Positions 9,927 through 28,167 of a DNA stretch of 64,000 nucleotides are shown here, one piece after another. This DNA is from Lentilactobacillus buchneri (GTDB taxonomy: Bacteria; Bacillota; Bacilli; Lactobacillales; Lactobacillaceae). The position numbers and the translations under genes are program-made. The notes under the pieces were generated by a model. That model ran no database searches and was not told where the DNA came from. It saw nothing but the letters and a program-made list of their open reading frames with translations. The stretch is from contig NZ_CP073066.1 of the NCBI RefSeq assembly GCF_018314255.1, positions 310,001 to 374,000 of the forward strand, in the 5' to 3' direction. Numbering within the stretch: the stretch's first letter is position 1; each line of letters starts with the position of its first letter.

Positions 9927-9984
9927 TTTTTCACCGCCTTTAAACTTGGTTTACTTACAGCTAGACATTGACGATAAGGAGAAA

Positions 9985-10683: not shown

Positions 10684-10684
10684 T

Positions 10685-11005: not shown

Positions 11006-11020
11006 ACGCCTCCATTAATT

Positions 11021-11274: not shown

Positions 11275-11275
11275 A

Positions 11276-13258: not shown

Positions 13259-13282
13259 CGTTAATACATCTTGAACTTCATT

Positions 13283-13579: not shown

Positions 13580-13590
13580 TGTTTACCCTC

Positions 13591-14184: not shown

Positions 14185-14200
14185 TTTTAAAATTCCTCCA

Positions 14201-15556
14201 TTAGTTAACCATTTTTAGTCGTTTAGCTTGTACATAGGCCCAACCAGCTTTATACCCACGGGCTTTAGCGATTTCTAGTAACTCTTTGTAACTTTGTGCA
14301 TCTTCCGGCTTTTTTCTTGCCGTCTGGATTTTTGAATAATCAGTAGTCAGTTTAAATTCCCCATTTTTTTCAATACTGGCCGTTTCATCAATTTCCATTC
14401 CGTCAGCGTCATATTTAATCTCATTACCACACTGTGGGCAAACACGGCATTGTGTCGGTACCACAGCAAAACAATTTGGACAAGTTTTGACCGGAATTGA
14501 TTTTGTGTTATTCTGCCGTTTTTTCTTAGGTCGTCCTTCAAGGCTCCATTGTCGTGGAGTATCAGGCAGACCAAAACGGGTATAGTTAGCTGCATGATCA
14601 ATGATAGTGGCCATTTTATTTGGCAAATATCGCATACAACGCATTGTTGCTTGAATATCAAATACCAAGCTTTCAGTTGGCCGTGCGATTACACAACACG
14701 TACACTCTTTGACGTCATATCCTTCATCAACCAATCCAAAGTTACATAGAACAGTGATCTTTCCCTTTCTAAAATCACTCATAATACGTTTTCTTTCGTC
14801 ACTAGGAGTTTTAGAATCACAATGTTTTGCACTGATACCCGCTTTTCTAAATTCAGCCGCAATTTGTTTGCTATGTTGAGTATCATGAGCATAAACAATG
14901 GTTCGCTGTCCAAATGCTTTATCCATCCAAGTTTTAACAATATCGCCATACAGAGTGGGCTTTGCTGAATCACTAACAGATTGATTGGTATAATCGCCAG
15001 TGCTTGATTTCTTTAGCTTTTCGTCATTAAACAATGTCACACTGTAGTATTTATATGGGCTTAGCTTTTTGTGTTCAATTAACCACTTAACCGTGGGGCC
15101 TTTGACCATAGCAGAATAAATATCGTCAAACCCTGCTCCGTTCATTCGCCACGGACTGCCTGAGAATCCAAGCCTAGGAACATCCGAATAGTATTTAAAA
15201 ATTTTTAAATATGTTTTTGCCCGACTATGTTGCGATTCATCGCAAATAATTAAGTTTGGTTTAGGCAAGTGATCTAATCGATTAGCAACTTTGCCCACTG
15301 TCATGATTGTGCAATTCATCAAATCAACATCTTGCTTTTGAAATGATTTTACGATCTGGTTAACTAATTCTTGACGGTGAACGAAGAACAAAATTCTACC
15401 ACCCTTTGAAACTGTTAATCTCGCAATTTCAGCTATAATAACTGATTTCCCACTACCTGGTGGGGAAACAATTAGTACCCCATTATTGCCTTGGCCAATT
15501 TTTTGGCGAGTTTCATCCACAATTCGTTGTTGATAATCAAATAATTTAAATGGCAT
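14201..15556 (-). CDS. Phage DEAD/DEAH-box helicase
   Basis: A 451-residue superfamily 2 helicase. Walker A is SPPGSGKS (31-38) and the motif II box is DESQH (106-110). Later motifs FGLVDEGYDV and QATMRCMRYLPNK (arginine-finger region) are present. Near the end CPNC and CPQC form a zinc ribbon. Start ATG at 15556 overlaps the end of the endonuclease gene in another frame. Helicases of this type unwind DNA at phage origins. Confidence 0.9.
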   Translation of the reverse strand: MPFKLFDYQQRIVDETRQKIGQGNNGVLIVSPPGSGKSVIIAEIARLTVSKGGRILFFVHRQELVNQIVKSFQKQDVDLMNCTIMTVGKVANRLDHLPKPNLIICDESQHSRAKTYLKIFKYYSDVPRLGFSGSPWRMNGAGFDDIYSAMVKGPTVKWLIEHKKLSPYKYYSVTLFNDEKLKKSSTGDYTNQSVSDSAKPTLYGDIVKTWMDKAFGQRTIVYAHDTQHSKQIAAEFRKAGISAKHCDSKTPSDERKRIMSDFRKGKITVLCNFGLVDEGYDVKECTCCVIARPTESLVFDIQATMRCMRYLPNKMATIIDHAANYTRFGLPDTPRQWSLEGRPKKKRQNNTKSIPVKTCPNCFAVVPTQCRVCPQCGNEIKYDADGMEIDETASIEKNGEFKLTTDYSKIQTARKKPEDAQSYKELLEIAKARGYKAGWAYVQAKRLKMVN

Positions 15557-16241
15557 TTTTTTGACACCGGATTTCTGCAAGGTGACGTTCTTTTACTGCT
15601 TCCTCATAGCTTGTAAATGACCTATCCAATATGATTCGGTTTCGATACATCATTTTAGCGACCCATTTATTTTTGCTTTTATCAAAAGAAACACCACGTA
15701 CACCGCTGATATTGTCTGCCCGCAATCTATTAGTCACTGGAGAGTTTCGTTTACGCCTATTGTTGGCCTGGGTTTTCCAATCAGTCCAACGGCAATTAGA
15801 TGGGCAATAATTACCATCTACATCAATTCGATCAATGGATTTTCCACTTTCATATCCATTTTGAATAGACCATCTTTCAAAAGCATAAAAACTATTTTTC
15901 CATTGATTACAGATAGATACACCTCGACCACCATAATCGGAAAAGCTTTTATTATTCGGGTTGAAACATCTTTGCTTCATAGACTCCCAAACAAAATAAA
16001 GTTTCGTATTTGAATGACCGTGTTTTCTAAACCTTTTACTAGCGAGTTCATCGTGTAGACAACCACAAGATTGTATTTTCCCCTTTCGAACATCGATTCC
16101 TGAAGCATAAGTGACATTTCCGCAGTCACATTTAAATCTCCAATAAGCACGGGTAGATCCTTTAGGACGTTGAGAATTATCAATGCAAACTGCTGTCAGC
16201 CTTCCGAATTTCTTACCCGTAATATCAATTAGTTTTGTCAT
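15546..16241 (-). CDS. Free-standing HNH-AP2 homing-type endonuclease
   Basis: A 231-residue protein. It has an N-terminal zinc-ribbon-like part (FKCDCGN, QSCGCLHDE), an HNH-type core (SIDRIDVDGNYCPSNCRW followed by TQANNRRK) and a C-terminal AP2-like DNA-binding repeat (SGVRGVSFDKSKNKWVAKM). This is the layout of mobile HNH-AP2 endonucleases. ATG at 16241 has GGAG 8 bases upstream. It overlaps the ATPase gene by 17 bases at its start and the helicase gene by 11 at its end, so insertion left both neighbours intact. Confidence 0.88.
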   Translation of the reverse strand: MTKLIDITGKKFGRLTAVCIDNSQRPKGSTRAYWRFKCDCGNVTYASGIDVRKGKIQSCGCLHDELASKRFRKHGHSNTKLYFVWESMKQRCFNPNNKSFSDYGGRGVSICNQWKNSFYAFERWSIQNGYESGKSIDRIDVDGNYCPSNCRWTDWKTQANNRRKRNSPVTNRLRADNISGVRGVSFDKSKNKWVAKMMYRNRIILDRSFTSYEEAVKERHLAEIRCQKNAI

Positions 16242-16920
16242 CGTTGCCACTCCCAAACTTAAACAGATCCTTAGCAGCACACATGGTTCGATTGTCCAAA
16301 CGATTTTTGGCATAAATCGAGTCATTTCCTTGCAGCATAACGCCACGACCGTTAGTCTTCGGATTAATAATCAACCGACCAACCACATCACATAATCCCA
16401 GCATTCCATCCATCACGCTTTGACGAATTTCGGGTGCATATTGATTAAATTGCTGACCATTTTCAGTAGTAATTTGGCGTTGTGTCTCCCAAGCTGTGGT
16501 TAGCACATTAACTGGCAACGCGTAGATAGCAGTCATTACTCTAGAAAAATAATTAGTCCACTGTGAATAATCCTGCAATTCATTTGAGATGCCGTTATGA
16601 CTACCCTTCCCCTTTTCCACAAACCAATCTTTTTCAAAACTTGATACATTATCAATAACTAAATTGTCGTAACCAACAATCAATTCTGATGCCTGTTCAA
16701 GATACTGCTTCATGTCTTCTTCGGGGTGAGTTCGATCCATTTCATCGACTGTAACGTTGCTAATGCCAGCTAATACTTTAGCGGAGTTATCCAAATCAAA
16801 AATTCTAGTTTTACCAGGTAAATATTTAACACAAGTTGTTTTCCCAGTTCCGGGTTTAGCATATAGAATGACTCGCCAATTCAAGGTTCGCTGCAAATCT
16901 TTAGCTTCAATCGTCTTCAT
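16225..16920 (-). CDS. Sak4-like phage recombination ATPase
   Basis: A 231-residue RecA-fold ATP-binding protein of the phage Sak4/AAA_24 kind. Walker A is AKPGTGKT at residues 21-28 and the Walker B region is NLVIDNVSSFE. These proteins promote single-strand annealing with an SSB-like partner, here probably the DUF669 protein. It lies between DUF1351 and the endonuclease, in the recombination module. Confidence 0.85.
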   Translation of the reverse strand: MKTIEAKDLQRTLNWRVILYAKPGTGKTTCVKYLPGKTRIFDLDNSAKVLAGISNVTVDEMDRTHPEEDMKQYLEQASELIVGYDNLVIDNVSSFEKDWFVEKGKGSHNGISNELQDYSQWTNYFSRVMTAIYALPVNVLTTAWETQRQITTENGQQFNQYAPEIRQSVMDGMLGLCDVVGRLIINPKTNGRGVMLQGNDSIYAKNRLDNRTMCAAKDLFKFGSGNDDKTN

Positions 16921-16922
16921 GA

Positions 16923-17780
16923 TTAAGCACCCACTCTTTGATAACGAATTTGGTTACTATCCATGAAAGCCCTCAACAGTTTCATTTGTGGAATTGTTGC
17001 CGTTATTTTTAAAGACACTGAATGGGAAACAACTTCGCCAGTATTAGTATCAATCGTTTTATCTTTCTGCTGAATTTGATGTGTTTGTGCTTCCGCTGCT
17101 TGTGCTTCCAGAGTCTGCTGTTTTTGTTTATTTAGTTTGACCTGATTATCAATTGCTTGAAGCAAATAATTAACATCTTGGCCTTGCTTCAACTGGTCGA
17201 TCCAACCAGCTGGATCAATGTGATAAGCTTGAGCATATTTGGTAATAGTACTGATACCGGTTTTTAAATCATCATGTTGCTTTTTAATGTAACCCATCAC
17301 ATCAGCAATTCCTTCGGTTACTTTCTTCTTGGTGGTGGTTTTATTTAACCAAGTAGGATCAATTTCAACCTCACCTGGTTCCACATGGTAATTAGGTGCC
17401 ATTTCAGCAATCAAAGCATTAACATGCTTCAAACGAAGCTGACGCTGCTGCTCTTCCAATTCTTTTAGCCCAGCGTCAATTGGGTTAATCGAACTATCCA
17501 GGGTCATTTCCAAGTCTTTAATTTGAGCTGCAAACCGTTGATATGGTTCAGCATATTTTTTTCTAATTTCCTTACGTTTATCATCAAGAGCTTGCTTCAA
17601 TTTCCGAAGCTCTGCCCGGCTAGACTTTGATTCTTTTTCTGTGGAAGCTGTTACTGCCATTCCTTGATATTTATTGGCATATGCTTCTACAGCTGCCTTT
17701 AATCGATCAAAATTATTAATTGTAATAACGGTTGGCCGATAGTCAATCGTGTATTCTGGTAGGGATAATTCATTTGCCAT
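16923..17780 (-). CDS. DUF1351 phage protein
   Basis: A 285-residue DUF1351 protein: N-terminal ANELSLPEYTIDYRPTVITI, a long charged coiled coil (about residues 45-120), then a helical domain ending in a winged-helix-like segment (ISLKITATIPQMKLLRAFMDSN). This family is nearly always next to phage single-strand annealing proteins and is thought to assist recombination or replication; its activity is not known. The downstream ATPase follows two bases after its stop. Confidence 0.85.
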   Translation of the reverse strand: MANELSLPEYTIDYRPTVITINNFDRLKAAVEAYANKYQGMAVTASTEKESKSSRAELRKLKQALDDKRKEIRKKYAEPYQRFAAQIKDLEMTLDSSINPIDAGLKELEEQQRQLRLKHVNALIAEMAPNYHVEPGEVEIDPTWLNKTTTKKKVTEGIADVMGYIKKQHDDLKTGISTITKYAQAYHIDPAGWIDQLKQGQDVNYLLQAIDNQVKLNKQKQQTLEAQAAEAQTHQIQQKDKTIDTNTGEVVSHSVSLKITATIPQMKLLRAFMDSNQIRYQRVGA

Positions 17781-17799
17781 TTATATTTACCTCCATCTT

Positions 17800-18069
17800 T
17801 TAATGTAAATAGTGTCGTTGATCAATTGAATTCTTCATTTCTGCAATCTCTTTTCTTTTAGATTTTGTGATTCTACCGCAGATCAATCTAATTGGTTCGG
17901 GATAAATTGGGACTCGTTCTTTCCGCTTCTTCATAAAATCCTTGTCGGTCCCAGTTACGACGTAAGTCGGATACTTTATGCTGAGCTTTCGCATAACGTC
18001 GGCACGAGAGACACCAGTTTCTAATATTTGGGAGTCCATTACACCAACTGCTTTCCAAAATTTAGTCAT
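17800..18069 (-). CDS. Small basic phage protein, unknown function
   Basis: An 89-residue very basic protein (KKRKERVPIYPEPIR, KSKRKEIAEMKN) with no family I recognise. Its ATG overlaps the stop of the preceding 52-residue gene as TAATG, and GAGGTGG precedes it. Being in the early operon next to recombination genes it may bind nucleic acid; that is only a guess from charge. Confidence 0.65.
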   Translation of the reverse strand: MTKFWKAVGVMDSQILETGVSRADVMRKLSIKYPTYVVTGTDKDFMKKRKERVPIYPEPIRLICGRITKSKRKEIAEMKNSIDQRHYLH

Positions 18070-18227
18070 TATTCCACCTCGTGATGTAAAATATATTCAG
18101 ATAGTCGTTGCTTTTCTTTATCTAGGACAAAGAAATATGCCAACAAGCTATGATCGTTTTCCACGGGTGTGCGTCCAATAATCATATTCAAACGTTTGAT
18201 ACGGTTCTGTATTGTTAATGTTTTCAT
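18069..18227 (-). CDS. Small phage protein (52 aa), unknown function
   Basis: ATG at 18227 is preceded by CTGGAGGGTCATCAG, a strong ribosome binding site. The product begins MKTLTIQNRIKRLNMIIGR and ends in SEYILHHEVE; it is probably two helices. It is translationally coupled to the next gene through TAATG. Confidence 0.65.
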   Translation of the reverse strand: MKTLTIQNRIKRLNMIIGRTPVENDHSLLAYFFVLDKEKQRLSEYILHHEVE

Positions 18228-18335
18228 TCTGATGACCCTCCAGGTGTTATAATATTAGTAGTTATAGTTGTTAGCTGGCCCACCCATTTGCTGTAGTGGG
18301 CTATTTAGTGCATATAATTAAGGTGGTGAATTCTT

Positions 18336-18548
18336 ATGGATTTTTACAATTGGTTAATGCGCTTTAAAGACGTTAGCTTACCAGTTGGTGATGTAGCAAG
18401 AGAAATAAGATCTGATAGATCGTTTCCTAAGGGAAATTTAGATTGGAAACATTTAAAAGAATATCTTAAGTCAATTGGTTTTTCAGATTCCAAATTAGAA
18501 ATTGTTAAAAACGTCTTCAACTATTATTTAGCGGAGAAAAGTCGCTAA
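18336..18548 (+). CDS. YozE-like SAM-fold protein
   Basis: A 70-residue protein with the pattern of YozE family proteins: MDFYNWLMRFKDVSLPVGDVA at the start and FPKGNLDWKHLKEYLKSIG in the middle, a small four-helix SAM-like fold. AAGGTGG precedes ATG. It is transcribed against the surrounding early genes and overlaps the 3' end of the facing gene by 32 bases. A TATAAT at 18248-18253 and a hairpin (about 18272-18295) lie upstream. Biological role unknown. Confidence 0.8.
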   Translation: MDFYNWLMRFKDVSLPVGDVAREIRSDRSFPKGNLDWKHLKEYLKSIGFSDSKLEIVKNVFNYYLAEKSR

Positions 18549-18711
18549 TTAATAAAATCCAGTAATCATTTGGAAGCTTCATATTTTCTTGGCCATATTT
18601 GCCTCGTATTTCAGTATTGGCATAAAGGCCACCATGGAACAGTTGGGCTTCCTTTCTTTTTCTTAATTCACCTATTAATTCAGATGTCGAATACTTTTGC
18701 AATTTATTCAT
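18517..18711 (-). CDS. Small early phage protein (64 aa), unknown function
   Basis: The product begins NKLQKYSTSELIGELRKRKEAQ, a helical basic segment, followed by FHGGLYANTEIRGKYGQENM. AAAGGAA lies about 9 bases before ATG. I recognise no family. It shares 32 bases with the YozE-like gene on the other strand, tail to tail. Confidence 0.6.
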   Translation of the reverse strand: MNKLQKYSTSELIGELRKRKEAQLFHGGLYANTEIRGKYGQENMKLPNDYWILLISDFSPLNNS

Positions 18712-18733
18712 CGATATGATTCCTTTCTATTTT

Positions 18734-18814
18734 TTAGTGACGCCCAGTTGGTATAAAGTATTCAATGACCAGGGCTGCTAAGAACAATAAAACTAGTACT
18801 TCCAATGATTCCAT
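18734..18814 (-). CDS. Tiny single-span membrane peptide (26 aa)
   Basis: ATG at 18814 follows AAGGAGTG with good spacing. The peptide is a single hydrophobic helix (LEVLVLLFLAALVIEYF) with a short polar end. Such tiny membrane peptides are common among LAB phage early genes and usually go unannotated. Function unknown; the reading is supported by ribosome binding site and operon position only. Confidence 0.55.
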   Translation of the reverse strand: MESLEVLVLLFLAALVIEYFIPTGRH

Positions 18815-18881
18815 TAATCAAATCACTCCTTTTTAATATTTGTAGAATTTTGAATTCAACCCATTAAGGAGGCTAAGTCGT

Positions 18882-19157
18882 ATGATTCATCAAATTGTTG
18901 CTATTCGATTACGAACTTATTCCAAGGGAAAGCAAGCATCACCAGAAAATATTGATTTAATAAAACAGGCCAGTGGGAAAATTGAACTTATTCAAGCCAC
19001 AGCAGCCAATATTATTCGTGGTGATCACTACTTTTACATTCTCGGTAATGGTACCTATGAAATCACTTATGATTACAATCATGACAATGCTTTATATATT
19101 AAAACCAAGAATTCCTCAAATCGTCACGATCGATTATTAGATTTGCCAAGAATTTAA
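18882..19157 (+). CDS. Small plus-strand protein, DUF3892-like
   Basis: A 91-residue protein with AAGGAGG 8 bases before ATG. The start (IHQIVAIRLRT) and the strand-turn-strand pattern ending in YIKTKNSSNRHDRLLDLPRI recall the small DUF3892 family. It runs against the early operon, and its stop lies only 5 bases from the stop of the facing DUF771 gene. A self-expressed moron-type gene is likely; the function is unknown. Confidence 0.65.
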   Translation: MIHQIVAIRLRTYSKGKQASPENIDLIKQASGKIELIQATAANIIRGDHYFYILGNGTYEITYDYNHDNALYIKTKNSSNRHDRLLDLPRI

Positions 19158-19162
19158 TGTTT

Positions 19163-19489
19163 TTACCAATTGAATTCACTCCAATGATCCTCCAGGAACT
19201 GCTGCATTTTGGTAGCTTTAAACAACCAGGGACTACCTTTACTGCCACGATGAACTAAATACCTATCATCCATTAAGGCTTGCATTTCCCGTGAATATTT
19301 TGGATTCTCCAAGAAATTTTCTCTTAACCATTGTGGTGATTTGTTCCCACACCATTTACGAAGATCGTTTAAATTCCAAGTCCGTCCAAAGGTTGATTCC
19401 CGTTTTAACTTTTGGTAATCTTCCTTATTTATCAATTCAAAATTATCAGGAATTTGAATTGATACTTTAGCACTAATGACTTGAGACAT
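19163..19489 (-). CDS. DUF771 phage protein
   Basis: A 108-residue DUF771 protein, frequent in early regions of lactobacillus and lactococcal phages. The strand start (ISAKVSIQIPDNFELI) followed by TWNLNDLRKWCGNKSPQWLRENFL and a basic helical end (SPWLFKATKMQQFLEDHW) suggests DNA binding. AAAGGAAGTG lies before ATG. It is divergent from the 147-residue plus-strand gene, with 57 bases between the two starts. Confidence 0.85.
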   Translation of the reverse strand: MSQVISAKVSIQIPDNFELINKEDYQKLKRESTFGRTWNLNDLRKWCGNKSPQWLRENFLENPKYSREMQALMDDRYLVHRGSKGSPWLFKATKMQQFLEDHWSEFNW

Positions 19490-19506
19490 TTTGTCACTTC
19501 CTTTAG

Positions 19507-19546
19507 TTGTATAATTTATTTATTCCAATTAATCGAGATGATAAAT
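19507..19546 (+). promoter_or_regulatory. Leader shared with the gene at 20469
   Basis: A TATAAT (19511-19516) followed by CAATTAATCGAG just before the start codon is repeated almost base for base at 20431-20468. Together the block of about 37 bases is a likely promoter plus leader used by both plus-strand genes. The minus-strand neighbour starts from the same small gap, so it may be bidirectional. Confidence 0.6.
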
Positions 19547-19987
19547 ATGAATTTAAAACAAGCAGCCCTATTTGAATATAGCTTTGAATATTTCTTGAGT
19601 AAGATTCACAATGCAGAAGCCAAAAAATGTATATGGGAATTTAATGGGCAGTTATTGACCGCTACTTTTCACGACAGTACTCTATTTAGTGGAGATGAAT
19701 TTAGCAAGCAACTTTTCAACGACCGATTGAAAGAAGATGCTCTAAAGCTCAATACTTCTCATGGGGATTCACTTGGTAAATTTCAACGAAATTTTCCGTT
19801 ATTAATTAACACGTTATCAACGTTCGTTGTCGATCTTGATAATTCTCAATATACTTTGACTGATTTTTTTCTGGCTAAAAACGTTTCATTTCTTGGGAAA
19901 AACATAGATAACTTAGATTTTTATCTTTTCCCTAAAGATGCAGATTTTAAGATTGTATCAATCACTTCATCCGAAACTCGGGATTAA
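19547..19987 (+). CDS. Plus-strand phage cargo protein, unknown function
   Basis: The 146-residue product starts MNLKQAALFEYSFEYFLSKI, and I recognise no family. It is soluble, acidic, and without signal peptide or membrane span; the Cys-poor sequence has a strand-rich middle (CIWEFNGQLLTATFHDSTLF). It has its own promoter-like leader and a strong terminator at 20017-20048, so it is an independent transcription unit inside the oppositely oriented early operon. That layout is typical of moron genes such as immunity or anti-phage factors, which is inference. An in-frame ATG at 19538 is an alternative start. Confidence 0.7.
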   Translation: MNLKQAALFEYSFEYFLSKIHNAEAKKCIWEFNGQLLTATFHDSTLFSGDEFSKQLFNDRLKEDALKLNTSHGDSLGKFQRNFPLLINTLSTFVVDLDNSQYTLTDFFLAKNVSFLGKNIDNLDFYLFPKDADFKIVSITSSETRD

Positions 19988-20159
19988 AGTGCTTGATATG
20001 ATTCAGCACATCTCCTAGCTCAGCACTTAGCTGCTGAGCTTTTTTTATTTCTGAAAGAAGAATACTTCCATTCTCCAAGATGAGAGAAATATTTGTGCTT
20101 TTTGCCTGATCTAATAAATCAATTTGTTTTAATTCAAAACTGGTGTTCTTATCGATCAT
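19962..20159 (-). CDS. Small early phage protein (65 aa), uncertain
   Basis: ATG at 20159 has AGGAAG about 7 bases upstream. The product is helical (LKQIDLLDQAKSTNISLIL, then KKAQQLSAELGDVLNHI). Doubt comes from the plus-strand terminator hairpin lying inside it: KKAQQLSAEL is read from the hairpin. The ribosome binding site and the otherwise empty slot in the operon favour a real gene. Confidence 0.45.
   Translation of the reverse strand: MIDKNTSFELKQIDLLDQAKSTNISLILENGSILLSEIKKAQQLSAELGDVLNHIKHFNPEFRMK
20017..20048 (+). terminator. Terminator of the 19547 gene
   Basis: Perfect 9-bp stem AGCTCAGCA / TGCTGAGCT with a 6-base loop followed by seven T on the plus strand. It lies 30 bases after the stop codon at 19987. 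Confidence 0.9.
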
Positions 20160-20198
20160 CTTTCTCACTTCCTTTTGATAAGATCTGACGTGGATTAA

Positions 20199-20399
20199 TT
20201 AATCGTCGTTTTTGTTGTCTTCAATTTCTACATTCTTCACTCCATAAGCGATAAACTTATTAACTACCGCTGTGACAGTTAATCCAGTTTCGTGCTTAAT
20301 GTCCATTAACTGGTTATACAAATCAGTGTTAATGCTAATCAATCGTGATACTCGTGGTTCTGGTGCTTTCTTTTCTAAAACTAAACGTGGTTTTGCCAT
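20199..20399 (-). CDS. Ribbon-helix-helix type small regulator
   Basis: A 66-residue protein with a basic N-terminus and a core (SRLISINTDLYNQLMDIKHETG followed by LTVTAVVNKFIAYGVKNV) that fits the strand-helix-helix layout of Arc/MetJ-type DNA-binding proteins. GAAGGAAG precedes ATG. It lies in the early operon, divergent from the frameshifted plus-strand gene, and could act on the shared leader sequences on either side; this is inference. Confidence 0.7.
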   Translation of the reverse strand: MAKPRLVLEKKAPEPRVSRLISINTDLYNQLMDIKHETGLTVTAVVNKFIAYGVKNVEIEDNKNDD

Positions 20400-20430
20400 T
20401 TTTTATTACTTCCTTCTATTATTTACTGAC

Positions 20431-20468
20431 GTATAATTTAATTAATTCAATTAATCGAGGTGAAAATT
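20431..20468 (+). promoter_or_regulatory. Second copy of the shared leader
   Basis: TATAAT at 20433-20438, then CAATTAATCGAGG directly before the GTG at 20469. The block matches the leader at 19507-19546 at nearly all positions, including distance to the start codon. Confidence 0.6.
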
Positions 20469-20671
20469 GTGACAAGCGATGAATTTTAAACAAGTTTGAC
20501 GACATGTTTGATGATGAAGAGAACATTGAGCGGATACGTGAAGATGCCAAAAATGGCAATCCCAATGACGACTGGACAAACAAAATGTTTAAATTTATTC
20601 AGCAGTATGAGAATGAACGAACTAACAATTTGGTTCGTATAGCTCTGAAAGAATTTTTGATAAAAGATTAA
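20469..20671 (+). pseudogene. Small plus-strand gene broken by a one-base frameshift
   Basis: After the leader, GTG ACA AGC GAT GAA TTT runs into TAA. If one T is added to the run of four T at 20484-20487 the frame continues as MTSDEFLNKFDDMFDDEENI and on through a plausible helical acidic protein of 67 residues to the TAA at 20669-20671. The open part from ATG 20504 (55 aa) has no ribosome binding site of its own. A T-tract deletion or sequencing slip is the simplest reading; programmed slippage is less likely. Confidence 0.65.
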
Positions 20672-20774
20672 ATGCTCTTTTACGCGATTCTTTTGTCATT
20701 GGCACGATTTTTTCCTTATTGCACTCCTTGCTACCACAAATGGCTCGGGGTGTTTTTTCTGCGTCTTGGTTCAC
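20622..20774 (-). CDS. Small cysteine-containing early phage protein (50 aa)
   Basis: GTG at 20774 is preceded by AAAGGAGGTGAATAAA, the best ribosome binding site in this part of the window. The product starts MNQDAEKTPRAICGSKECNK and ends in a basic helix (TKESRKRAFNLLSKILSEL). It overlaps the end of the plus-strand pseudogene and contains the terminator of that gene. No family recognised. Confidence 0.6.
   Translation of the reverse strand: MNQDAEKTPRAICGSKECNKEKIVPMTKESRKRAFNLLSKILSELYEPNC
20721..20758 (+). terminator. Terminator of the broken plus-strand gene
   Basis: CACTCC pairs with GGGGTG (one G-T pair) across a loop and is followed by six T on the plus strand, 50 bases after the stop codon at 20671. 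Confidence 0.6.
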
Positions 20775-20822
20775 TTTATTCACCTCCTTTCAACTATTCA
20801 TTGACGATCACTTGGCTTCTTT

Positions 20823-20936
20823 CTAGAACATATGACCAAGTAAGTAACCAATTGTCATAAATAGAACTCCTATCGCCATATTTAAAATAGGCTGAATATT
20901 ACTATCAAAGTACTGATGCAGTTTGCCTTTTTCCAT
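20823..20936 (-). CDS. Tiny single-span membrane peptide (37 aa)
   Basis: ATG at 20936 has AAAGGAGGTGAG upstream. The peptide has a short polar N-terminus (EKGKLHQYFDSNIQP) and one membrane helix (ILNMAIGVLFMTIGYLLGHMF). It is the first gene after cro in the early transcript. Confidence 0.65.
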   Translation of the reverse strand: MEKGKLHQYFDSNIQPILNMAIGVLFMTIGYLLGHMF

Positions 20937-20952
20937 TTAACTCACCTCCTTT

Positions 20953-21168
20953 CTATGCTGGCTGTGTGTACGTATCTGGAGTAAATAAAAACTTGAGTTC
21001 ATATTCAGGAAAAAAGCTTTCTTGAATTTTTAAAGCTTCACTGAATTTGAATGATGACGTTCCATTAATTTTGTCAGCGATAGTCTGGTAACGAACATTC
21101 AATAGATCTGCCATATCAACTAAAGTTACATTTTTCTTCTTTCGAATTTCTTCTAAATTATTTAACAT
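20953..21168 (-). CDS. cro: Cro-like early repressor
   Basis: A 71-residue helix-turn-helix protein: LEEIRKKKNVTLVDMADLLNVRYQTIADKING contains a lambda-repressor-type HTH at about residues 14-36. Divergent from the CI-like gene with four operator repeats between them, it is the first gene of the lytic transcript and should shut off cI after induction. AAGGAG lies before ATG at 21168. Confidence 0.88.
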   Translation of the reverse strand: MLNNLEEIRKKKNVTLVDMADLLNVRYQTIADKINGTSSFKFSEALKIQESFFPEYELKFLFTPDTYTQPA

Positions 21169-21185
21169 AATATGACTCCTTCCTA

Positions 21186-21323
21186 ATACGAATTTTCGTA
21201 TATTAGTTTAAAAAATAATGGCTCTTCATGAGCACATTTTTATAATATACGAATTTTCGTATTTAGTCAATACCAAAATTCGTATTTCTTTAAATTCGTT
21301 CATTTACATACGATTTTTCGCAT
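21186..21323. promoter_or_regulatory. Four CI/Cro operators with divergent promoters
   Basis: Inverted repeat ATACGAATTTTCGTAT occurs exactly at 21186-21201 and 21247-21262, and in diverged form at 21270-21285 (ATACCAAAATTCGTAT) and 21308-21323 (ATACGATTTTTCGCAT). The cro promoter on the minus strand is TTGACT (21265-21270), 17 bases, TATTAT (21242-21247), with an operator filling the spacer. The cI promoter on the plus strand is TTTACA (21303-21308), 17 bases, TATAAT (21326-21331), also with an operator in the spacer. Confidence 0.9.
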
Positions 21324-21357
21324 GATATAATAAAACATGTTAAAGGAGGAAGTAAGC

Positions 21358-22065
21358 ATGAACAAGGAAGATTATTTAAAAGATTTAATAGAAATAAAAT
21401 CTGGTAACGTTAAAGCTTTTGCCGATTCTATAGGCATGGCTTATACAACTATCCGATCTATTCTGGATCGCGGCATTATGAATGCTAAAATGGAAAATAT
21501 AATAAAAATATGTGATGGATTGGGAATCAAACCAGAAGACATTGTCAAGTTAGAAAGTTCAGTCGTTAGTGATACCAATAAAATAATGCTTCAGCTCCAC
21601 CCTTCACGCCAAGAGAAAGTTTACAATTATGCTAGTGACCAATTAGACGAACAGAATAATGAAAAAATATCTTCAATGTTTGACCACAAGCCAATGATTG
21701 AAATTCCTGCTGGTCGTTCAACTGCTGCCGGTTCCCCTATTAATGGTGAGGATCAAGATACCCAATTAATCCACAAGCTTATTGCTGGTGAGAAGGTCCC
21801 CGCTGGTGCTGATGAATTAGTTACTGTGGATGGTGACTCAATGGAACCATTGCTAAAAAAGGGTAGTCAGGTGTTCATTCACTATCAGCCAGAAGTTGAG
21901 AATGGTGAAATTGCGATCGTCCACATTCGTGATGTTGGTGTTACTTGTAAAAAGTTTTATGTAAATGAGGATAATACCGTTACCTTAAAATCAATTAACA
22001 AGGCATACGATGACATGGTGTTTGATTGTGATGAAGTTAATGTAATCGGTAAAGTGATCTTATGA
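21358..22065 (+). CDS. cI: CI-like repressor with S24/LexA peptidase domain
   Basis: 235 residues from the ATG after AAAGGAGG; an in-frame start at 21337 would put the ribosome binding site inside the gene. Residues 5-60 are the helix-turn-helix (GNVKAFADSIGMAYTTIRSI). A linker leads to the self-cleavage site Ala124-Gly125 in RSTAAGSP. The peptidase domain has nucleophile Ser161 (VDGDSMEP) and the general-base Lys around 198-199 (VTCKKFYV). It keeps the prophage silent and is inactivated by RecA-stimulated autocleavage after DNA damage; the latter is known for the family. Confidence 0.93.
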   Translation: MNKEDYLKDLIEIKSGNVKAFADSIGMAYTTIRSILDRGIMNAKMENIIKICDGLGIKPEDIVKLESSVVSDTNKIMLQLHPSRQEKVYNYASDQLDEQNNEKISSMFDHKPMIEIPAGRSTAAGSPINGEDQDTQLIHKLIAGEKVPAGADELVTVDGDSMEPLLKKGSQVFIHYQPEVENGEIAIVHIRDVGVTCKKFYVNEDNTVTLKSINKAYDDMVFDCDEVNVIGKVIL

Positions 22066-22426
22066 GCTCCCAAATGTGGGGGCTTCATTTAAAGTTTTAA
22101 AAGAACATATGTTTCGACTAACCAGGTGGTTTGCTTAGGTTCGAGTCCTAAATAGTCAATATTTAACCGAAAAAAATAACCAACGTTCTCTGGATAAACG
22201 TTGGCCACAGGAAAGAATCGATCGTGAAGCAGCTAATATGTATTACAAATTTCTAGTAAACATCCACGATAAAATCAGTAGCAATTTTAAAGGACTTGCT
22301 AAACATGATCCTAATAAATGGCGACACTTTATTTCAGTTAACGAAATGCTTGATCAATTGGAAGAATCTGTTGTTGAGATAGAATTTGAATAAGCAAAGT
22401 GAATACTATAAAGGGGAGAATTTTAT
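22066..22426 (+). pseudogene. Intergenic stretch with a decayed open frame
   Basis: After cI there is a weak hairpin (about 22066-22092). A frame then stays open from about 22140 to the TAA at 22391-22393 and reads plausibly (NQRSLDKRWPQERIDREAAN, then MYYKFLVNIHDKISSNFKG). It has no start codon with a ribosome binding site: the first ATG (22238) would give 51 residues without Shine-Dalgarno. It looks like the 3' remnant of a lost gene. Confidence 0.45.
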
Positions 22427-22492
22427 ATGCAAGCATTCGTCAAAATTAAACGAATTTCACATTTTACAAAAAAGCTTTTTTCAAACATGTGA
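22427..22492 (+). CDS. Tiny basic peptide (21 aa), possible leader or remnant
   Basis: ATG at 22427 follows AAGGGGAG with ideal spacing and reads MQAFVKIKRISHFTKKLFSN plus Met before TGA. It is strongly basic and amphipathic. It may be a regulatory leader peptide, a small toxin-like peptide or the first part of a truncated gene; nothing further can be said. Confidence 0.35.
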   Translation: MQAFVKIKRISHFTKKLFSNM

Positions 22493-22562
22493 GAAAATCA
22501 ACATTATGCATTGAACACAACTTTCAATTAATGTACCCTTTAATATATAGGAGGAATTTATT

Positions 22563-23192
22563 GTGAAAAAAATTAATCTCATTTTAGGCTTATCATTACC
22601 ATTTATGTTTTTATCGTCAGCGAATGCTTCTTCACACAAATTAACCGTTAAAATTAACCCTATTAATGATCAAGCTAAAACTATTACTGGTAAGACGACT
22701 AAGGGAACAAAGGTAACACTTTATGAAGGTCGAAAAACTATTGCTAAGAAAAAAAGCAGCGGTAACTTTTCCATAAAAGTTACCAAACCGCTTAATTTTA
22801 AAAACAAATATCACCTTTTAGCAACCAAAAAGGGTTATACATCTAAAAAAATCAACCTTAAAATTATTGTTAAAAGAATCGATTATGATGCTAAGATAAA
22901 ACAGATTACTAACCAAATAAAGGCTATTAAAAATCAAGTAAAGCCATTAAGACAACAAGTGCAAGCCATGGAGCCCTTTATCAATGCTTTAGAGAATGAT
23001 GATCCTACTTCATCAGATTACCAAACTGCTTTGCAGCAAGCTAATGGAAATGCTGAAGCTTATGAAGATCAATATAATAATCTAAAAGCTCAAATAAAGG
23101 CCGATTCTAATCCTTTAGGATTACTCTACTATCAGCGCCAAGCTTATATTTATAAATCAATGCAACAATATAATGGTAAAGTTCAACTCTAG
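22563..23192 (+). CDS. Exported Ig-like/coiled-coil protein, candidate superinfection exclusion
   Basis: A 209-residue secreted protein. It has a signal peptide (MKKINLILGLSLPFMFLSS, cleavage after ANA near residue 22), then a bacterial Ig-like domain at about 28-102 (TITGKTTKGTKVTLYEG, ending KINLKIIVK), then a coiled coil from 105 (KQITNQIKAIKNQVKPLRQQ) and a Tyr/Gln-rich end. There is no lipobox and no sortase motif. AGGAGG lies before the start. Genes between the repressor and integrase of LAB phages often encode exported Sie proteins, which suggests lysogenic expression and blocking of superinfection; inference only. Confidence 0.75.
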   Translation: MKKINLILGLSLPFMFLSSANASSHKLTVKINPINDQAKTITGKTTKGTKVTLYEGRKTIAKKKSSGNFSIKVTKPLNFKNKYHLLATKKGYTSKKINLKIIVKRIDYDAKIKQITNQIKAIKNQVKPLRQQVQAMEPFINALENDDPTSSDYQTALQQANGNAEAYEDQYNNLKAQIKADSNPLGLLYYQRQAYIYKSMQQYNGKVQL

Positions 23193-23277
23193 AATAATGT
23201 GTTTAAAATGTTTCAGATTCACCACATAGAAAGTTCGCTTAAGATATTTAGCAAAAAATGAGAATGTAAAATTTTTG

Positions 23278-23309
23278 AGGTTGATACCTTACGGTATTAA
23301 CCTTTTTTG
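23278..23309 (+). terminator. Terminator of the exported-protein gene
   Basis: AGGTTGATACC pairs with GGTATTAACCT around TTAC, followed by TTTTT on the plus strand. Confidence 0.85.
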
Positions 23310-23389
23310 CATACAAAAACTTTTACAGTTATCTAAATTTTTTATCGAACTAGGTTTTAAATTGCATTAATTACCGAACTTAATGAATG

Positions 23390-23421
23390 TAAAAGAAAAA
23401 GCAAACCCGTAGGGGGTTTGC
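23390..23421 (-). terminator. Original S-layer gene terminator, now displaced by the IS
   Basis: On the minus strand GCAAACCC-CCTAC-GGGTTTGC is followed by TTTTTCTTTT. In the uninterrupted sequence it would lie about 65 bases after the S-layer stop codon; the ISL3 insertion now separates them by about 1.5 kb. Confidence 0.8.
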
Positions 23422-23583
23422 CCAAAAATACCAATAACGGTTCTACAATATCTGTTGTTGGTAATAGATTTTTATCTATTACTGATGACAGATTTTTTGT
23501 TTATCATTAGAATAAAAAAGCGGACATCTCCCGTCCGTTAACTTGCTCCCACCACAGAATTAAGTCAAGAAAGGAAATGCCCT

Positions 23584-24855
23584 ATGTCAAATGATACTAC
23601 GAAAATGTTGTTAGGAATAGATGATGAACACTTAATAATTGAGGAAGGACAAGTGGGTGATGATGGAGTGATTCGATTGGTGGGGTCCCTAAACTACACC
23701 CCCAAGGCATGCCGCAATTGTGGGATTATCAATGATCACCAAATTATTGGCTATGGTTGGCGGAAGACCACCATTAGATTCGCAAAAACATTGGGCAGCA
23801 CCGTTATCCTGTGTCTCAATCGGCGAAACTTTCACTGTAAGGCTTGTCATACCAATTTCCTGGCGCAGACGAATGCGGTGCCGAAACACTGCACGATTTC
23901 AAATACGACCCGCAAACAATGCTTAGAAAAACTGACCGAACCGGTTTCGCTCAAACACATTGCCGATGAGTTATCCACTTCGGATTCATTCGTTGGTCGG
24001 CAGCTCTTGCGCGCTGAACGGGACTTTCAAACCAACTGGCACTATTTACCAAAAGTTCTCCTCATGGACGAAGTTAAAAGCACTAAGAGCGCCACCGACG
24101 CGATGAGCTTTGAATTTATGGATGCGGAAACCCACGAATTGATCGACCTGTTACCCTTTAGGACCATCTATCAGCTTCAAAAGTATTTCCAGCATTACGA
24201 CCAGGCTGCGCGAGAAAATGTGAAAATTATCGTCACCGATATGAACTATACCTATCCCAAATTGGTGGGGCAGATCTTTCCGAACGCCATCGTTGTCATC
24301 GATCCGTTCCACTTGGTTAACGCTTTAAATCGAGCTTTTAATAAGACGCGGGTGCGCCTCATGAAAACCCTGGCGACTTCCTCACGCGAGTATCACGCCC
24401 TAAAACGCTATTGGAAACTATTATTAACGCCGGAAAATCACCTCAACTACGAAGCTTTCCGTAAGTGGACAAACTTCCCTTATCCAGCGACTGCCACTGA
24501 TGTGGTTGATGCTTTATTGGACATTGATCCCGAGCTCAAGCAAACTTACGACGTGATGAATCGGTTACGTGAAACCATCAAAAACCGTGATTGGCCCAAC
24601 TATAATCAAGTATTCCATCACTTAGAGGGCTGCTCGGAAGAGATGTTGGCAACCCTCCAGACCCTAGCGACTCATCATGATGAAATTGGCAATACCTTTA
24701 CTCACCATTACACCAACGGGCCCTTAGAAGGTTCAAACAACAAGATTAAAGTCATTAAACGCACTGGATTTGGTTACCAAAACTTCTTCAGATTCCTGCT
24801 AAGAGTGCTGTTCGCTTTTCGAGTTCATACAAAAAGAGCTCTAATCACCAAGTGA
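23584..24855 (+). CDS. ISL3-family transposase
   Basis: A 423-residue DDE transposase. It has an N-terminal zinc-ribbon (CRNCG near residue 42 and CKACH near 86), then a helix-turn-helix (LKHIADELSTSDSFVGRQLL) and the catalytic domain. Catalytic residues are Asp in LLMDEVKS (about 162), Asp in VIDPFH (about 240) and Glu in NGPLEGSNNKIK (about 383). GAAAGGAAA precedes the ATG. The gene is complete with no frameshift, so the element may be active. Confidence 0.95.
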   Translation: MSNDTTKMLLGIDDEHLIIEEGQVGDDGVIRLVGSLNYTPKACRNCGIINDHQIIGYGWRKTTIRFAKTLGSTVILCLNRRNFHCKACHTNFLAQTNAVPKHCTISNTTRKQCLEKLTEPVSLKHIADELSTSDSFVGRQLLRAERDFQTNWHYLPKVLLMDEVKSTKSATDAMSFEFMDAETHELIDLLPFRTIYQLQKYFQHYDQAARENVKIIVTDMNYTYPKLVGQIFPNAIVVIDPFHLVNALNRAFNKTRVRLMKTLATSSREYHALKRYWKLLLTPENHLNYEAFRKWTNFPYPATATDVVDALLDIDPELKQTYDVMNRLRETIKNRDWPNYNQVFHHLEGCSEEMLATLQTLATHHDEIGNTFTHHYTNGPLEGSNNKIKVIKRTGFGYQNFFRFLLRVLFAFRVHTKRALITK

Positions 24856-24864
24856 TTAGAACTC
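24831..24864 (-). terminator. IS-borne hairpin terminator facing the S-layer gene
   Basis: GAGTTCTAATCAC-TTG-GTGATTAGAGCTC followed by TTTTT on the minus strand. It overlaps the last codons of the transposase and would now end S-layer transcripts about 90 bases after their stop codon. Confidence 0.75.
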
Positions 24865-24951
24865 CAATATTTTGTTCACCAACAACAGTTGACGAAGAAC
24901 CCCAATAACACATTAGTTCATAATACCCAATTAAAATGGATATTACTTAAT

Positions 24952-26535
24952 TTAAGCAAGAGGAGAAACTTGACCACCATTTTCACCCGTAGTAGGTGCA
25001 GAAACAGTCGCAGCATCGCTCAAGTTATATGAGAATACAGCATTGACTTGAGTACCAAAAGTACCTGCATCGGCTGAAGATGGAGTATATGTCAATTGTT
25101 TCCAAGTAACATTGCCATTTGTATCAAATTGTGGATAAACAGCTGATTTAAGTGAATTCAACTCACTGTTACCCTTAAGATAGTTCAAAGCCTGATCAGA
25201 AGTAAACGTGGCATCTTGAGCCCCGCTAAACAAATCTGTGATTGCAATAGACTTAGGTTGAATGAAAGTTTTTGCAGCGGCTTTAGAAATGTCATTATTA
25301 AGTGTTGAAAGTTCATCGGAACTCAATTTCGTAACCTGACTTACCAAATCAGACTTCTTGTCCCCAAATAAAGCACTTAAATCATCTGTAAGTGGGCTAA
25401 CTACTCCAGTCAAAGCATTTGCCGGAACCCCATTAGTACTAGTTGTTGGTTGCGACGTCATAGGTTGAGCAGCACTTGAAGCTTGTTCTGAATCTCGTGA
25501 ATTAGCTTTAAATGTCGTGTAAACTACATTTCCCTTATTAACTACAAGACTAACTGATGATCCAAACTTAGCCTGAGCTAAAGTAGCCTTTTGTGCATCA
25601 GTTAAGTTACTAAATGGATAGCCAGTTCCTTTTAATGCCGATGCAATTTGTGAATTCAATGCATCAGTATCAGAACCAGCTAAAGTCCAAGAATAAACAT
25701 TTCCGTTAGCTGAAAGAGTGCCTAAGGTTGCATCTTTCTGAGCACCCGACTTAGTATAATCAAGAGTCTTTACAGTATTTCCACTAGGATCTACTAATAC
25801 AATACGAACTGCATTATCTGCAATTGGATTAGCAACAGTGACATCAGATGCCTTTACCCAAGCGCCATTAAGGTCGGAGTTTGATGAACTAATTTGATAC
25901 CAAAGGTCACCCTCACGTGAAGTAGTAACAGCCTTGCTTACAGTAAATGTTGCATTTTTATAAGCGTCAGTAGAAGTAATTACCTTACCACTTGCATCCT
26001 TAGCACGGCCAACTTTATATTGAGTCCATGCTGGAGCTTTGAATAAAGTAGTATTAGCAGTTGTGCTAGTTGAGCTTAACTTATAAGTGTTAGTTGATGC
26101 AGGAGCAGTAGCATCCTTAGTAGTAGCGTATGAAGCTACACCACCAGCAAATGCTGAGGCACTCTTACCACCATAAATCCAGCCACGATATTGTTTATCG
26201 AATGATACAACCTTGTAGTAAACTGAGCCACGGTTAGTAGTAGCAACACGGTAAGCACGTAAATTAGCCTTGCCAGTTTGTGCATTAGCTAATGCTTTGG
26301 TAGTAGTCTTAGTTGCAACGGTCTTGGCACCCTTCAAAGTACCAGCCTTTGTATAAAGAGCGTTAGTACCATTAAATGTAACGTTACGAGTAGTAGCGTC
26401 AGAAGTTAATGCCTTATTTGATGTAACTTTGGCATATGATTTTGCACTAGCATTTGTGCTAGATACACCGGCAACAGCTACAAATGATAATGCAGCTACG
26501 CCAGCAAAAAGAGTCTTTTTCAATGACTTTTTCAT
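24952..26535 (-). CDS. S-layer-like surface protein carried by the prophage
   Basis: A 527-residue exported protein. Its signal peptide ([20 protein letters not shown], cut after NASA near residue 31) and first repeat ([20 protein letters not shown] to [20 protein letters not shown]) are those of S-layer proteins of the L. buchneri/L. brevis groups. A second, related repeat spans about residues 175-250 ([17 protein letters not shown]). A Ser/Thr/Pro-rich linker ([17 protein letters not shown]) leads to a C-terminal domain. Start ATG at 26535 has GGGAGGAAA upstream. The N-terminal repeats should bind wall polymer; the C-terminal part would form the lattice. It lies between the repressor module and the integrase. 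Confidence 0.9.
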
Positions 26536-26614
26536 GTGTAATTTCCTCCCAAAAAATTGTTTTTTCAAGTTACCTAGACATGCAAAAACATGCTTCAATT
26601 AACTTGCTGTAAAT

Positions 26615-26642
26615 AGTATAACATAATCAAGGTTGAATGCAA
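26615..26642 (-). promoter_or_regulatory. Promoter of the S-layer-like gene
   Basis: On the minus strand TTGCAT (26637-26642), 16 bases, TATACT (26615-26620), about 80 bases before the ATG, giving a leader of roughly 70 bases as often seen for highly expressed surface proteins. Confidence 0.6.
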
Positions 26643-26770
26643 AAGAAAACAGGAGTTGTAAAGGCTTTAACATTTTTTTGTAATCTATATGCCATGATAA
26701 TTAATAAATGATCGCTCTATTAAGTAGATTCCCCACTATGTGTTAGTATATTACCCAAAGGAGAATAATA

Positions 26771-27904
26771 ATGCCATCAATACGTAAGCATGGTCATGGA
26801 TACCAAGTAAGATACTACTATTATGATGCCAATGGTCAGGAACACGAGAAAACTAAGAGCGGCTTTAGAACTAAATCAGCTGCAAAGCTATTTGCGAGTC
26901 AATTGGAAATCGATATCCACAATGGTTTGGATCTCGTTCCTAAAGATCCTAAGTTTGCTGACTATTTTGACTATTTTTATCACACGTACAAAGAACCCAA
27001 AATTGAGAATCAGACTAAGAATCGCTATAAAATAACTAGTCGAGTATTACATAATTATTTCGGTGATGTTACTTTAAAAAGTATTGACCGACCACAATAT
27101 CAAGCATTTATTAACTTCTATGGTCATTCTCATGCAAAAGATACTGTTTATAAAGTTAATTCACTGATTAGAGCAACCGTTCAAAATGCCATTCTTGACG
27201 ATCTGATTCATAAAGATTTCACCCAGCGAGTCAGTCTTATTTATGACAAGTCACGTGATAAGCATGTGGAATACCTCAACGTGGCTGAGATTAAGCGTCT
27301 CATCGCTTATTTGGAGAATCACTTAAACTATCACTTTACCTCCACTTTTATGATCCTGACGGCCGTTTTAACTGGTGCTCGCTTGGGGGAAATTCAAGCA
27401 TTAACTTGGAATGACGTTAATTTTAATTTTAAAACGATTAGCATTACTAAATCTTGGAATTCATCCGAAGGCGGTGGATTCAAAGATACCAAGACGGCTG
27501 GTTCAAATCGAATCATTGCAGTTAATGACGAATTGCTGAAATCATTAAAGATCTTGAAGGATCACAATAATGGAGAACTAATTTTTGTTAATCAATATAA
27601 ATCCATTCCATCATCCTCTGCCGTTAATAAAAAGTTGCGTTCTATACTAAAAGACTTAGGAATTAAAAAGCAAGGCTTTCACTTTCATTCTTTACGACAC
27701 TCACATGTAGCTTACCTACTATCTCGAGGAATTGACATTTACATCATTTCTAAGCGTTTAGGCCATGCTGACGTATCCACAACAACAAAGATTTATTCCT
27801 ATTTAATGGATGAATATAAAGCAAAAAACGATCAACAGATTCGTGAAGAGTTAGATAACCTTTCCTCTCATGATGAAACTATACCAATCAAGCGGAACCT
27901 TTAA
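26771..27904 (+). CDS. int: Phage tyrosine integrase
   Basis: A 377-residue site-specific recombinase. Residues 1-55 are the AP2-like arm-binding domain (MPSIRKHGHGYQVRYYYYDA). A SAM-like core-binding domain follows, then the catalytic domain with Arg204 (TGARLGEI), His306-Arg309 (HFHSLRH), His332 (RLGHADVSTTT) and nucleophile Tyr342 (KIYSYL). AAAGGAGAATAAT precedes ATG. All catalytic residues are present. It ends 190 bases from tRNA-Thr, the probable attachment side. Confidence 0.95.
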   Translation: MPSIRKHGHGYQVRYYYYDANGQEHEKTKSGFRTKSAAKLFASQLEIDIHNGLDLVPKDPKFADYFDYFYHTYKEPKIENQTKNRYKITSRVLHNYFGDVTLKSIDRPQYQAFINFYGHSHAKDTVYKVNSLIRATVQNAILDDLIHKDFTQRVSLIYDKSRDKHVEYLNVAEIKRLIAYLENHLNYHFTSTFMILTAVLTGARLGEIQALTWNDVNFNFKTISITKSWNSSEGGGFKDTKTAGSNRIIAVNDELLKSLKILKDHNNGELIFVNQYKSIPSSSAVNKKLRSILKDLGIKKQGFHFHSLRHSHVAYLLSRGIDIYIISKRLGHADVSTTTKIYSYLMDEYKAKNDQQIREELDNLSSHDETIPIKRNL

Positions 27905-27919
27905 TAAGGTTCCGTTTTT
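27893..27919 (+). terminator. Integrase terminator
   Basis: CGGAACC-TTTAATAA-GGTTCCG followed by TTTTT; the left arm of the stem encodes the last codons of int and the loop holds its stop codon. Confidence 0.85.
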
Positions 27920-27958
27920 ATTTGGTTATTTTACTCTGTATCAGGTTAAACTTTTTCT

Positions 27959-27987
27959 GCCCGTTTGGCCGTTATTTGCCCGTTATT
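27959..27987. repeat. GCCCGTT tandem repeats next to int
   Basis: GCCCGTTTG, GCCGTTATT and GCCCGTTATT follow one another at 27959, 27968 and 27978. Short direct repeats beside int, between it and the presumed attachment site, fit integrase arm-type binding sites. The attL partner is not in the window. Confidence 0.5.
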
Positions 27988-28023
27988 ATTTATATTTTAA
28001 TACTTTCTAGTACGCTTTTATAA

Positions 28024-28045
28024 ATTAAAAAAATTAAGAATGCCT
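28024..28045 (-). terminator. Terminator of the rRNA-tRNA operon
   Basis: On the minus strand TTAGGAATGC and GGCATTCTTAA form a stem followed by seven T, about 50 bases after tRNA-Thr. Confidence 0.75.
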
Positions 28046-28093
28046 ATTTAACAGCATTCCTAATTTTAATATTTCTTCTAATTTGTATAATTA

Positions 28094-28167
28094 TGCCGAC
28101 TGCAGGAGTCGAACCTGTGACCCTCGGTTTACGATACCGATGCTCTACCAACTGAGCTAAGTCGGCA
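28094..28167 (-). tRNA. tRNA-Thr (CGT)
   Basis: Complete cloverleaf with acceptor TGCCGAC / GTCGGCA, D-arm GCTCAGTTGGTAGAGC, anticodon stem TCGGT / ACCGA around ATCGTAA (anticodon CGT, codon ACG) and T-arm AGGTTCGACTCCT. It is the last gene of the rRNA operon and its 3' end faces the prophage. Confidence 0.93.

Follow-up and report, generated by a model that had tools for sequence, protein, structure and literature searches.

A prophage-borne S-layer-type gene with variable halves in a Lentilactobacillus phage lineage integrated at tRNA-Thr

S-layer proteins make up the outermost coat of a bacterial cell. Prophages are already known to alter the surface sugars and single surface proteins of the cells that carry them. 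The O-antigen conversion genes of Salmonella and Shigella phages lie beside the integrase gene and alter the surface of the lysogen by modifying a polysaccharide, whereas the phage described below would itself bring in the coat protein. A variable surface part is also known from the S-layer cassette variation of C. difficile, which is host-encoded. The wall protein CwpV of the same species resembles the protein considered below in its variable surface part and its link to phage resistance, but it is encoded by the host; the accessible part of the source describes how it stops DNA injection from the cell surface (PMC4737114). In L. brevis, the S-layer proteins SlpA, SlpB, and SlpM have a signal peptide, a basic and conserved N-terminal wall-binding region (given as a feature of L. 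brevis S-layers in the available text of PMC2571106), and a variable C-terminal region; the protein described here shares these features and differs in being prophage-encoded.

The closest published statement to a phage-carried S-layer gene concerns L. buchneri CD034. In the accessible portions of PMC4521753, slpB (LBUCD034_1608) is the most-transcribed gene of this strain, with RPKM values of 59,082 and 62,393, and it is remarked that the gene “was probably introduced ... by a transduction event”. An S-layer gene has also been placed on an L. hilgardii plasmid, according to the part of PMC8038741 that is available. Among the titles and shown abstracts of our literature search, which covered few subscription papers, no description of an S-layer gene as prophage cargo was found.

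Here, we describe a stretch of 64,000 nucleotides from Lentilactobacillus buchneri (NZ_CP073066.1, positions 310,001 to 374,000), hereafter called the window, which contains a gene for a secreted protein of the Lactobacillus brevis-type S-layer family (slp; its product, SLP). The gene order is repressor, secreted Ig-like gene, ISL3-family insertion sequence (IS), slp, tyrosine integrase, and tRNA-Thr (Table 1), and this bears out the preliminary description, which had placed slp between the repressor and the integrase. The same description had reported an exact target duplication for the IS left of slp; the 8-bp sequence CCAATAAC is indeed present on both sides, at 23431-23438 and 24902-24909. 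An Ig-like coiled-coil gene adjoins slp also in L026, L032, L033, and L152, the integrases of L032 and L033 being different. An invertible S-layer cassette was considered and rejected: in the window, the inverted repeats near slp are the IS ends and a short palindrome only, and a repeat search round slp in L151 gave no inverted repeats. In L151, the 3' end of another slp (L151:3235-3495) stands on its own and in reverse orientation downstream of the intact slp, where it overlaps a transposase frame.

Table 1. Features of the slp region, in window positions.
Feature	Position	Strand	Remarks
Right 28 kb of the prophage	1..28106	.	Entire prophage is G000:C1:293294-338106
CI-like repressor	21337..22065	+	Peptidase_S24 and HTH; PF00717 1.8e-21; phrog_4
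Second secreted surface gene, Big_6-like Ig domain and coiled coil	22563..23192	+	PF17936 4.4e-5, below its cut-off
ISL3-family IS, 50 bp downstream of slp	23439..24901	+	Transposase 23584-24855, PF01610 1.2e-49; terminal repeats
slp, S-layer-type gene, 527 aa	24952..26535	-	Start codon ATG at 26535
SLP residues 335-527, hypervariable C-terminal part	24955..25533	-	Model pLDDT mostly >90
SLP residues 238-334, resembles the C1 domain of L. brevis SlpM	25534..25824	-	
SLP residues 33-237, basic wall-binding region, two GW/SH3-like modules	25825..26439	-	Predicted
SLP signal peptide, residues 1-32 (MKKSLKK...ASA)	26440..26535	-	Read from sequence; conserved in two alignments
Divergent slp/int intergenic region	26536..26770	.	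Conserved in aligned prophages
Promoter-like site TTTGCA-17-TATACT, TG before the second hexamer; likely slp promoter	26615..26643	-	Candidate; site conserved
Tyrosine integrase (int)	26771..27904	+	PF00589 2.6e-27; phrog_1 2.5e-74
attR core TATGCCGACTGCAGG, 15 bp	28092..28106	.	Overlaps the 3' end of tRNA-Thr; second copy at G000:C1:293294-293308
tRNA-Thr(CGT), integration target	28093..28167	-	

The core sequence occurs at both ends of the prophage, attL being outside the window, 44.8 kb to the left of attR, and slp therefore lies between the att sites. Just inside the left end are genes for a holin and a GH25 endolysin, followed by tail genes, and just outside it is a gene that reads as a POT-like transporter. 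In eight of the 24 genomes of the genus (G001, G015, G016, G017, G019, G020, G021, and G023; weakest in G016, with 317 bp at 68%), this left-flank sequence is found about 0.3-1.2 kb from tRNA-Thr without an integrase match, and none of the eight carries slp there; in G020, which is empty at this site, another contig bears a 96% integrase together with a broken slp. In G022 and G014, the same tRNA is occupied by prophages of this lineage, their cores being 43.3 and 40.8 kb apart, respectively, and a contig of 44,155 bp in G012 spans core to core. Two viral contigs, L026 and L028, contain attP, that is, the integrase-side arm, the core, and the endolysin-side arm, and since these contigs also contain slp, the gene travels with the excised phage DNA. 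In other words, slp is phage-borne and lies inside the prophage. The earlier proposal that the phage carries slp as cargo is thus upheld by the mapping of both att sites (attR not lying to the left of slp), by the eight empty sites, by core-bounded prophages in other species, and by attP.

Two further observations were made at the ends of these prophages. In the assemblies of L. kefiri (L152) and L. otakiensis (L154), the contigs stop precisely where the att core ends, which is what would be expected if integrated and excised forms coexist. Directly left of the intact prophage of the window genome lies a phage remnant (L081:9133-17000; G000:C1:280-288 kb), in which tail, baseplate, and lysin-like genes, named by reading, are followed by a transposase.

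The program-listed open reading frame of slp opens at a TTG (26598); the conserved start is the ATG listed in Table 1, behind GGGAGG, and this start codon is found in 13 of 14 aligned rows (two rows are copies, and the L029 row is shortened). SLP shows the features of the L. brevis-type S-layer proteins: a signal peptide, a basic and conserved N-terminal region, and a variable C-terminal region. The predicted N-terminal wall-binding region has a pI of 10.0 and, in the structural model, a GW/SH3-like fold, and the predicted function is that SLP would be exported and would bind the wall through residues 33-237. The C-terminal region is variable and more acidic, with the fold of the L. brevis-type family; from residue 241 to the end, the window protein is 26-40% identical to those of the intact phages of the same lineage. 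The label “S-layer” assigns SLP to a family on the grounds of homology and fold: in profile searches of SLP, no Pfam, PHROG, or NCBIfam model assigned S-layer; many relatives carry the name “S-layer protein”, and one domain can be matched to the C1 domain of SlpM, whose structure is solved, with weak sequence identity to 9m6y. The S-layer-type identity that had been given to the gene is supported by these named relatives and this domain match. SLAP domains (PF03217), characteristic of the L. acidophilus-type S-layer, are absent from SLP, as are SLH domains (no Pfam family at E <= 0.001), and a fold search of a viral-structure library gave two matches at E <0.001 with low TM-scores, which are uninformative. 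Among sequence motifs, SASSAS is linked to glycosylation.

Integrases at least 96% identical to that of the window occur in nine of 397 genomes of the family, all of them Lentilactobacillus, and slp adjoins this integrase in all nine. The same holds for eight of eight named loci (L. parabuchneri, L. kefiri, L. parafarraginis, L. otakiensis, L. sunkii, L. farraginis, L. dabitei, and one MAG) and for six of six viral contigs, the three sets overlapping and the slp frame being interrupted in three cases. In the intact phages of the lineage, the gap between slp and int is 235-239 bp and the intergenic DNA is 92-100% identical; identity is 89-97% in pairs that include the interrupted L029 or L030, and 80-85% to L157, the MAG, which is G020 by coordinates. 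Some lysogens apparently do without slp, as L029, L030, and L157 have interrupted frames. The gene also adjoins two unlike integrases (L032 and L033). It is absent beside a 72% integrase with the same repressor type (L. hilgardii L158, with the apparent copies L089 and L130), in 20 of 20 loci with integrases of 48-56% (L131-L150, with short flanks, some of them ended by the contig), and in four of four loci at L160-L163. At the slp position of the L. hilgardii relative are other small secreted genes (L158:2912-4173).

The backbone of the prophage is about 95% identical at the DNA level over much of its length in G012, G022, and G014, with lower values at 27-32 kb. The strongest loss of similarity falls on the tail-fibre gene and on the stretch from the C-terminal half of slp to the repressor, and there are also short gaps. 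Among the intact alleles (L029 was left out), the integrases are 99-100% identical, SLP residues 1-60 are 93-100% identical, and SLP residues 241 to the end are 24-56% identical, with the identical pairs L026/L152 and L. otakiensis/L. sunkii as exceptions to this last range. Compared with the SLP of P0003, the window protein is 91% identical in the C-half and 63% in the N-half; compared with that of L156, it is 85% identical in the N-half and 27% in the C-half. In L032 and L153, the SLP N-domains are 96% identical and the integrases 33%. Judged from such sequence comparisons, the N- and C-halves of SLP are shuffled between phages.

In a tree of 58 SLP N-domains (L152 and L155, which are copies, the interrupted L030, and L157, with 63 aa, were left out, and for some rows labelled chromosomal, e.g., L047 and L053, the context was seen within 1.5 kb), the 13 integrase-adjacent phage rows need five label changes. 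The phage N-domains fall into several N-types near chromosomal genes, and several N-types are found on one backbone. The dN/dS values of the N-domain are 0.07-0.48 (45 pairs, 10 phages); those of the C-half, where computed, are scattered from 0.22 to 1.15 with high dS, and they indicate neither clear constraint nor clear positive selection.

The tail-fibre gene (L082:6304-8268), with a constant N-terminus (93-100%) and a variable remainder, is a second hypervariable spot of the lineage. Differences in this remainder are not paralleled by differences in the SLP allele (r = 0.21 for 45 pairs of 10 phages; of 12 phages, G007, a copy of L026, and L030, with its interrupted slp, were left out; the fibre and slp of G002, G004, and G013 lie on separate contigs and were taken as one prophage each; and the L031 fibre ends at a contig end). 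For example, the fibres of L. parabuchneri and L. sunkii are 96% alike and their SLP C-halves 28%, and L. otakiensis and L. sunkii have one SLP in common with fibres that are 84% alike. Since the SLP allele does not follow the tail fibre, the idea of a shield matched to the phage's own fibre or receptor is not supported.

The host genome itself is rich in related sequences. The preliminary description had suggested a search for further S-layer genes in the host, and 25 stretches match the family, slp included, with 15 other S-layer-type open reading frames, some of which are pieces of broken genes. A chromosomal array at G000:C1:1834632-1866664 (L164 and L165) holds 11 S-layer-type frames, again with some pieces of broken genes, and single copies lie further at C1:560, 1216, 1676, and 2113 kb. 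The chromosomal array is likely a donor pool for the phage alleles. With so many S-layer-type genes in the host, the phage protein may mix with the host layer, rather than replace it.

Like slp, slpB of CD034 lies, by its locus numbers, to the left of the rRNA/tRNA-Thr cluster, and it has a reported transduction origin. The accessible tables of PMC4521753 give rpmE as 1641 and pyrG as 1645 in CD034; in the window genome, the distances to the right of slp are 33.6 kb for rpmE and about 39-41 kb for pyrG. From slp to rpmE, we count 25 protein genes and five RNA genes here versus 32 numbers in CD034, and three genes lie between rpmE and pyrG in both; the distance of pyrG from the tRNA-Thr cluster is 33-35 kb in G001, G011, and G023 as well. 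Because the CD034 locus numbers fit this slp-rpmE-pyrG spacing, slpB probably occupies the tRNA-Thr prophage slot, a placement taken from locus numbers alone. The window strain has its own allele.

A search of phage genomes, which had likewise been suggested, revealed other phages with an S-layer-type gene beside the integrase or the repressor. In Lactobacillus phage Lb (Heilongjiangvirus; a named record, host L. brevis), the S-layer-family gene is orf53 of NC_047983 (L120:7078-8430), labelled as a nucleic acid binding protein. Sixteen viral contigs, one of them a copy of phage Lb, have a gene of this type; beyond the gene, 15 of the 16 show a match to a repressor, and eight have ParA before it, several of the contigs ending near the gene. 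Three tandem S-layer-type genes are found in one Lb-like viral contig (L251:886-5483). A broader scan gave 25 viral contigs with the family, made up of seven and 16 previous ones and two more. Among 72,556 plasmid records, 18 match, eight of them over at least 80% of the query, and these eight best-covered matches are from L. brevis, Secundilactobacillus paracollinoides, and Lactiplantibacillus pentosus. Two of the three plasmids examined in detail are phage-plasmids, and the other, pUCCLB556_D, is a mobilizable plasmid with a phage module. The gene of SC013 plas4, found with the window's protein, is closer to the window slp. Phage Lb orf53 and the L. brevis phage-plasmids resemble the window in having an S-layer-family gene with a variable C-half beside the repressor, whereas the phage Lb group has a different backbone and the partition gene ParA.

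Because slp lies between int and the repressor and has what is probably its own conserved promoter region, it should be readable in the lysogen; the conserved promoter region, published data on relatives, and the gene order suggest that it is expressed there. The slp/int region is conserved in 14 prophage rows (two are copies and one is shortened), and a promoter scan gave three sites versus a shuffle mean of 5.4, i.e., not above chance. The codon adaptation of the window slp is only moderate (0.51, the third highest of 13 phage genes sampled) and lower than that of a chromosomal paralogue (0.60); in all 15 rows, which include copies, two interrupted alleles, and L032, the value for slp is above that for int, the reference in all cases being two GAPDH genes only. 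As an argument for high expression of slp, codon use is weak.

For the second phage group, two proteins are listed in surface extracts of L. brevis. According to the available text of PMC9504196, LiCl extraction of five L. brevis strains gave ten S-layer proteins, including UCCLB556_pD0019 (47.89 kDa, pI 9.68; one strain) and AZI11_14340 (49.17 kDa, pI 9.48; three strains), and the words phage and prophage are absent from that text. The slp proteins of pUCCLB556_D and of the phage-plasmid pl12108-5 have exactly these values of mass and pI. The match is one of mass and pI, with the identity of AZI11_14340 taken also from its name (the locus number in the plasmid table is different, AZI11_RS14285); the extract strains differ from the plasmid strains, and peptides could be shared.

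We consider that a temperate Lentilactobacillus siphophage lineage carries slp as regular cargo (a moron gene) that converts the S-layer of the lysogen, with a probability of about 0.72. The phage integrates at tRNA-Thr through its tyrosine integrase, and slp, situated between the integrase and the repressor, would be transcribed away from int via its own conserved promoter region. As suggested by the fold and by work on L. brevis SlpA, SLP would then be exported, would bind the wall by its basic GW/SH3-like N-half, and would display its L. brevis-type C-half, adding to or replacing the host S-layer. Near-identical backbones carry different alleles with swapped N- and C-halves, and the tree points to other phages or host S-layer gene arrays as their likely sources. 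The benefit would likely be a changed lysogen surface, e.g., the shielding of phage receptors or altered adhesion. Phage infection probably changes the cell surface via slp, and we infer that a general surface change of the lysogen is the best reading.

A different view, which we regard as less likely, is that slp encodes a phage wall protein for superinfection exclusion, CwpV-like in effect, and not an S-layer subunit, its family likeness serving only for wall attachment and for a protruding variable part. Exclusion genes are often found beside the repressor, where slp also lies, and a wall-binding N-half with a hypervariable C-half would suit such a protein, as would a host that already has 15 other S-layer-type frames. 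On the contrary, SLP alleles do not follow the type of tail fibre, the SlpM C1 fold fits a structural coat better, and so does the published transcript level of CD034 slpB, if this gene is at the same locus.

The presence of arrays of the family in host chromosomes, together with the interrupted frames of L029, L030, and L157, might also suggest that slp is a chance passenger, a chromosomal S-layer gene picked up by the phage without benefit. This seems very improbable, since slp is present in every locus of the lineage examined, its promoter region and leader are conserved, the dN/dS of its N-domain is low enough (see above) to speak against it, and the same arrangement recurs in the unlike phage Lb group. 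As S-layer-type genes are common in these genomes, slp might even be a host gene that merely lies next to the prophage end; we reject this with near certainty, given that attL and attR flank slp, that relatives have sites without it, and that the attP contigs contain it.

If the S-layer conversion favoured here is true, the S-layer would be a trait borne by phages, which strains could acquire, exchange, or lose. A gene for a protein of the cell-coat type is regularly carried by a phage lineage that occurs in nine Lentilactobacillus genomes, and the same is seen for a second phage group in L. brevis and other species. We further speculate, at slightly less than even odds, that the main S-layer of many Lentilactobacillus strains is made by the tRNA-Thr prophage, from the cell's most-transcribed gene, as CD034 SlpB would be, and that exchange between phages and the host array sets the coat type. 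In strains from kefir and silage and in probiotic strains, the S-layer is a subject of research on adhesion and immune contact, and a phage-borne S-layer could help to explain the strong differences in S-layer genes between close strains.
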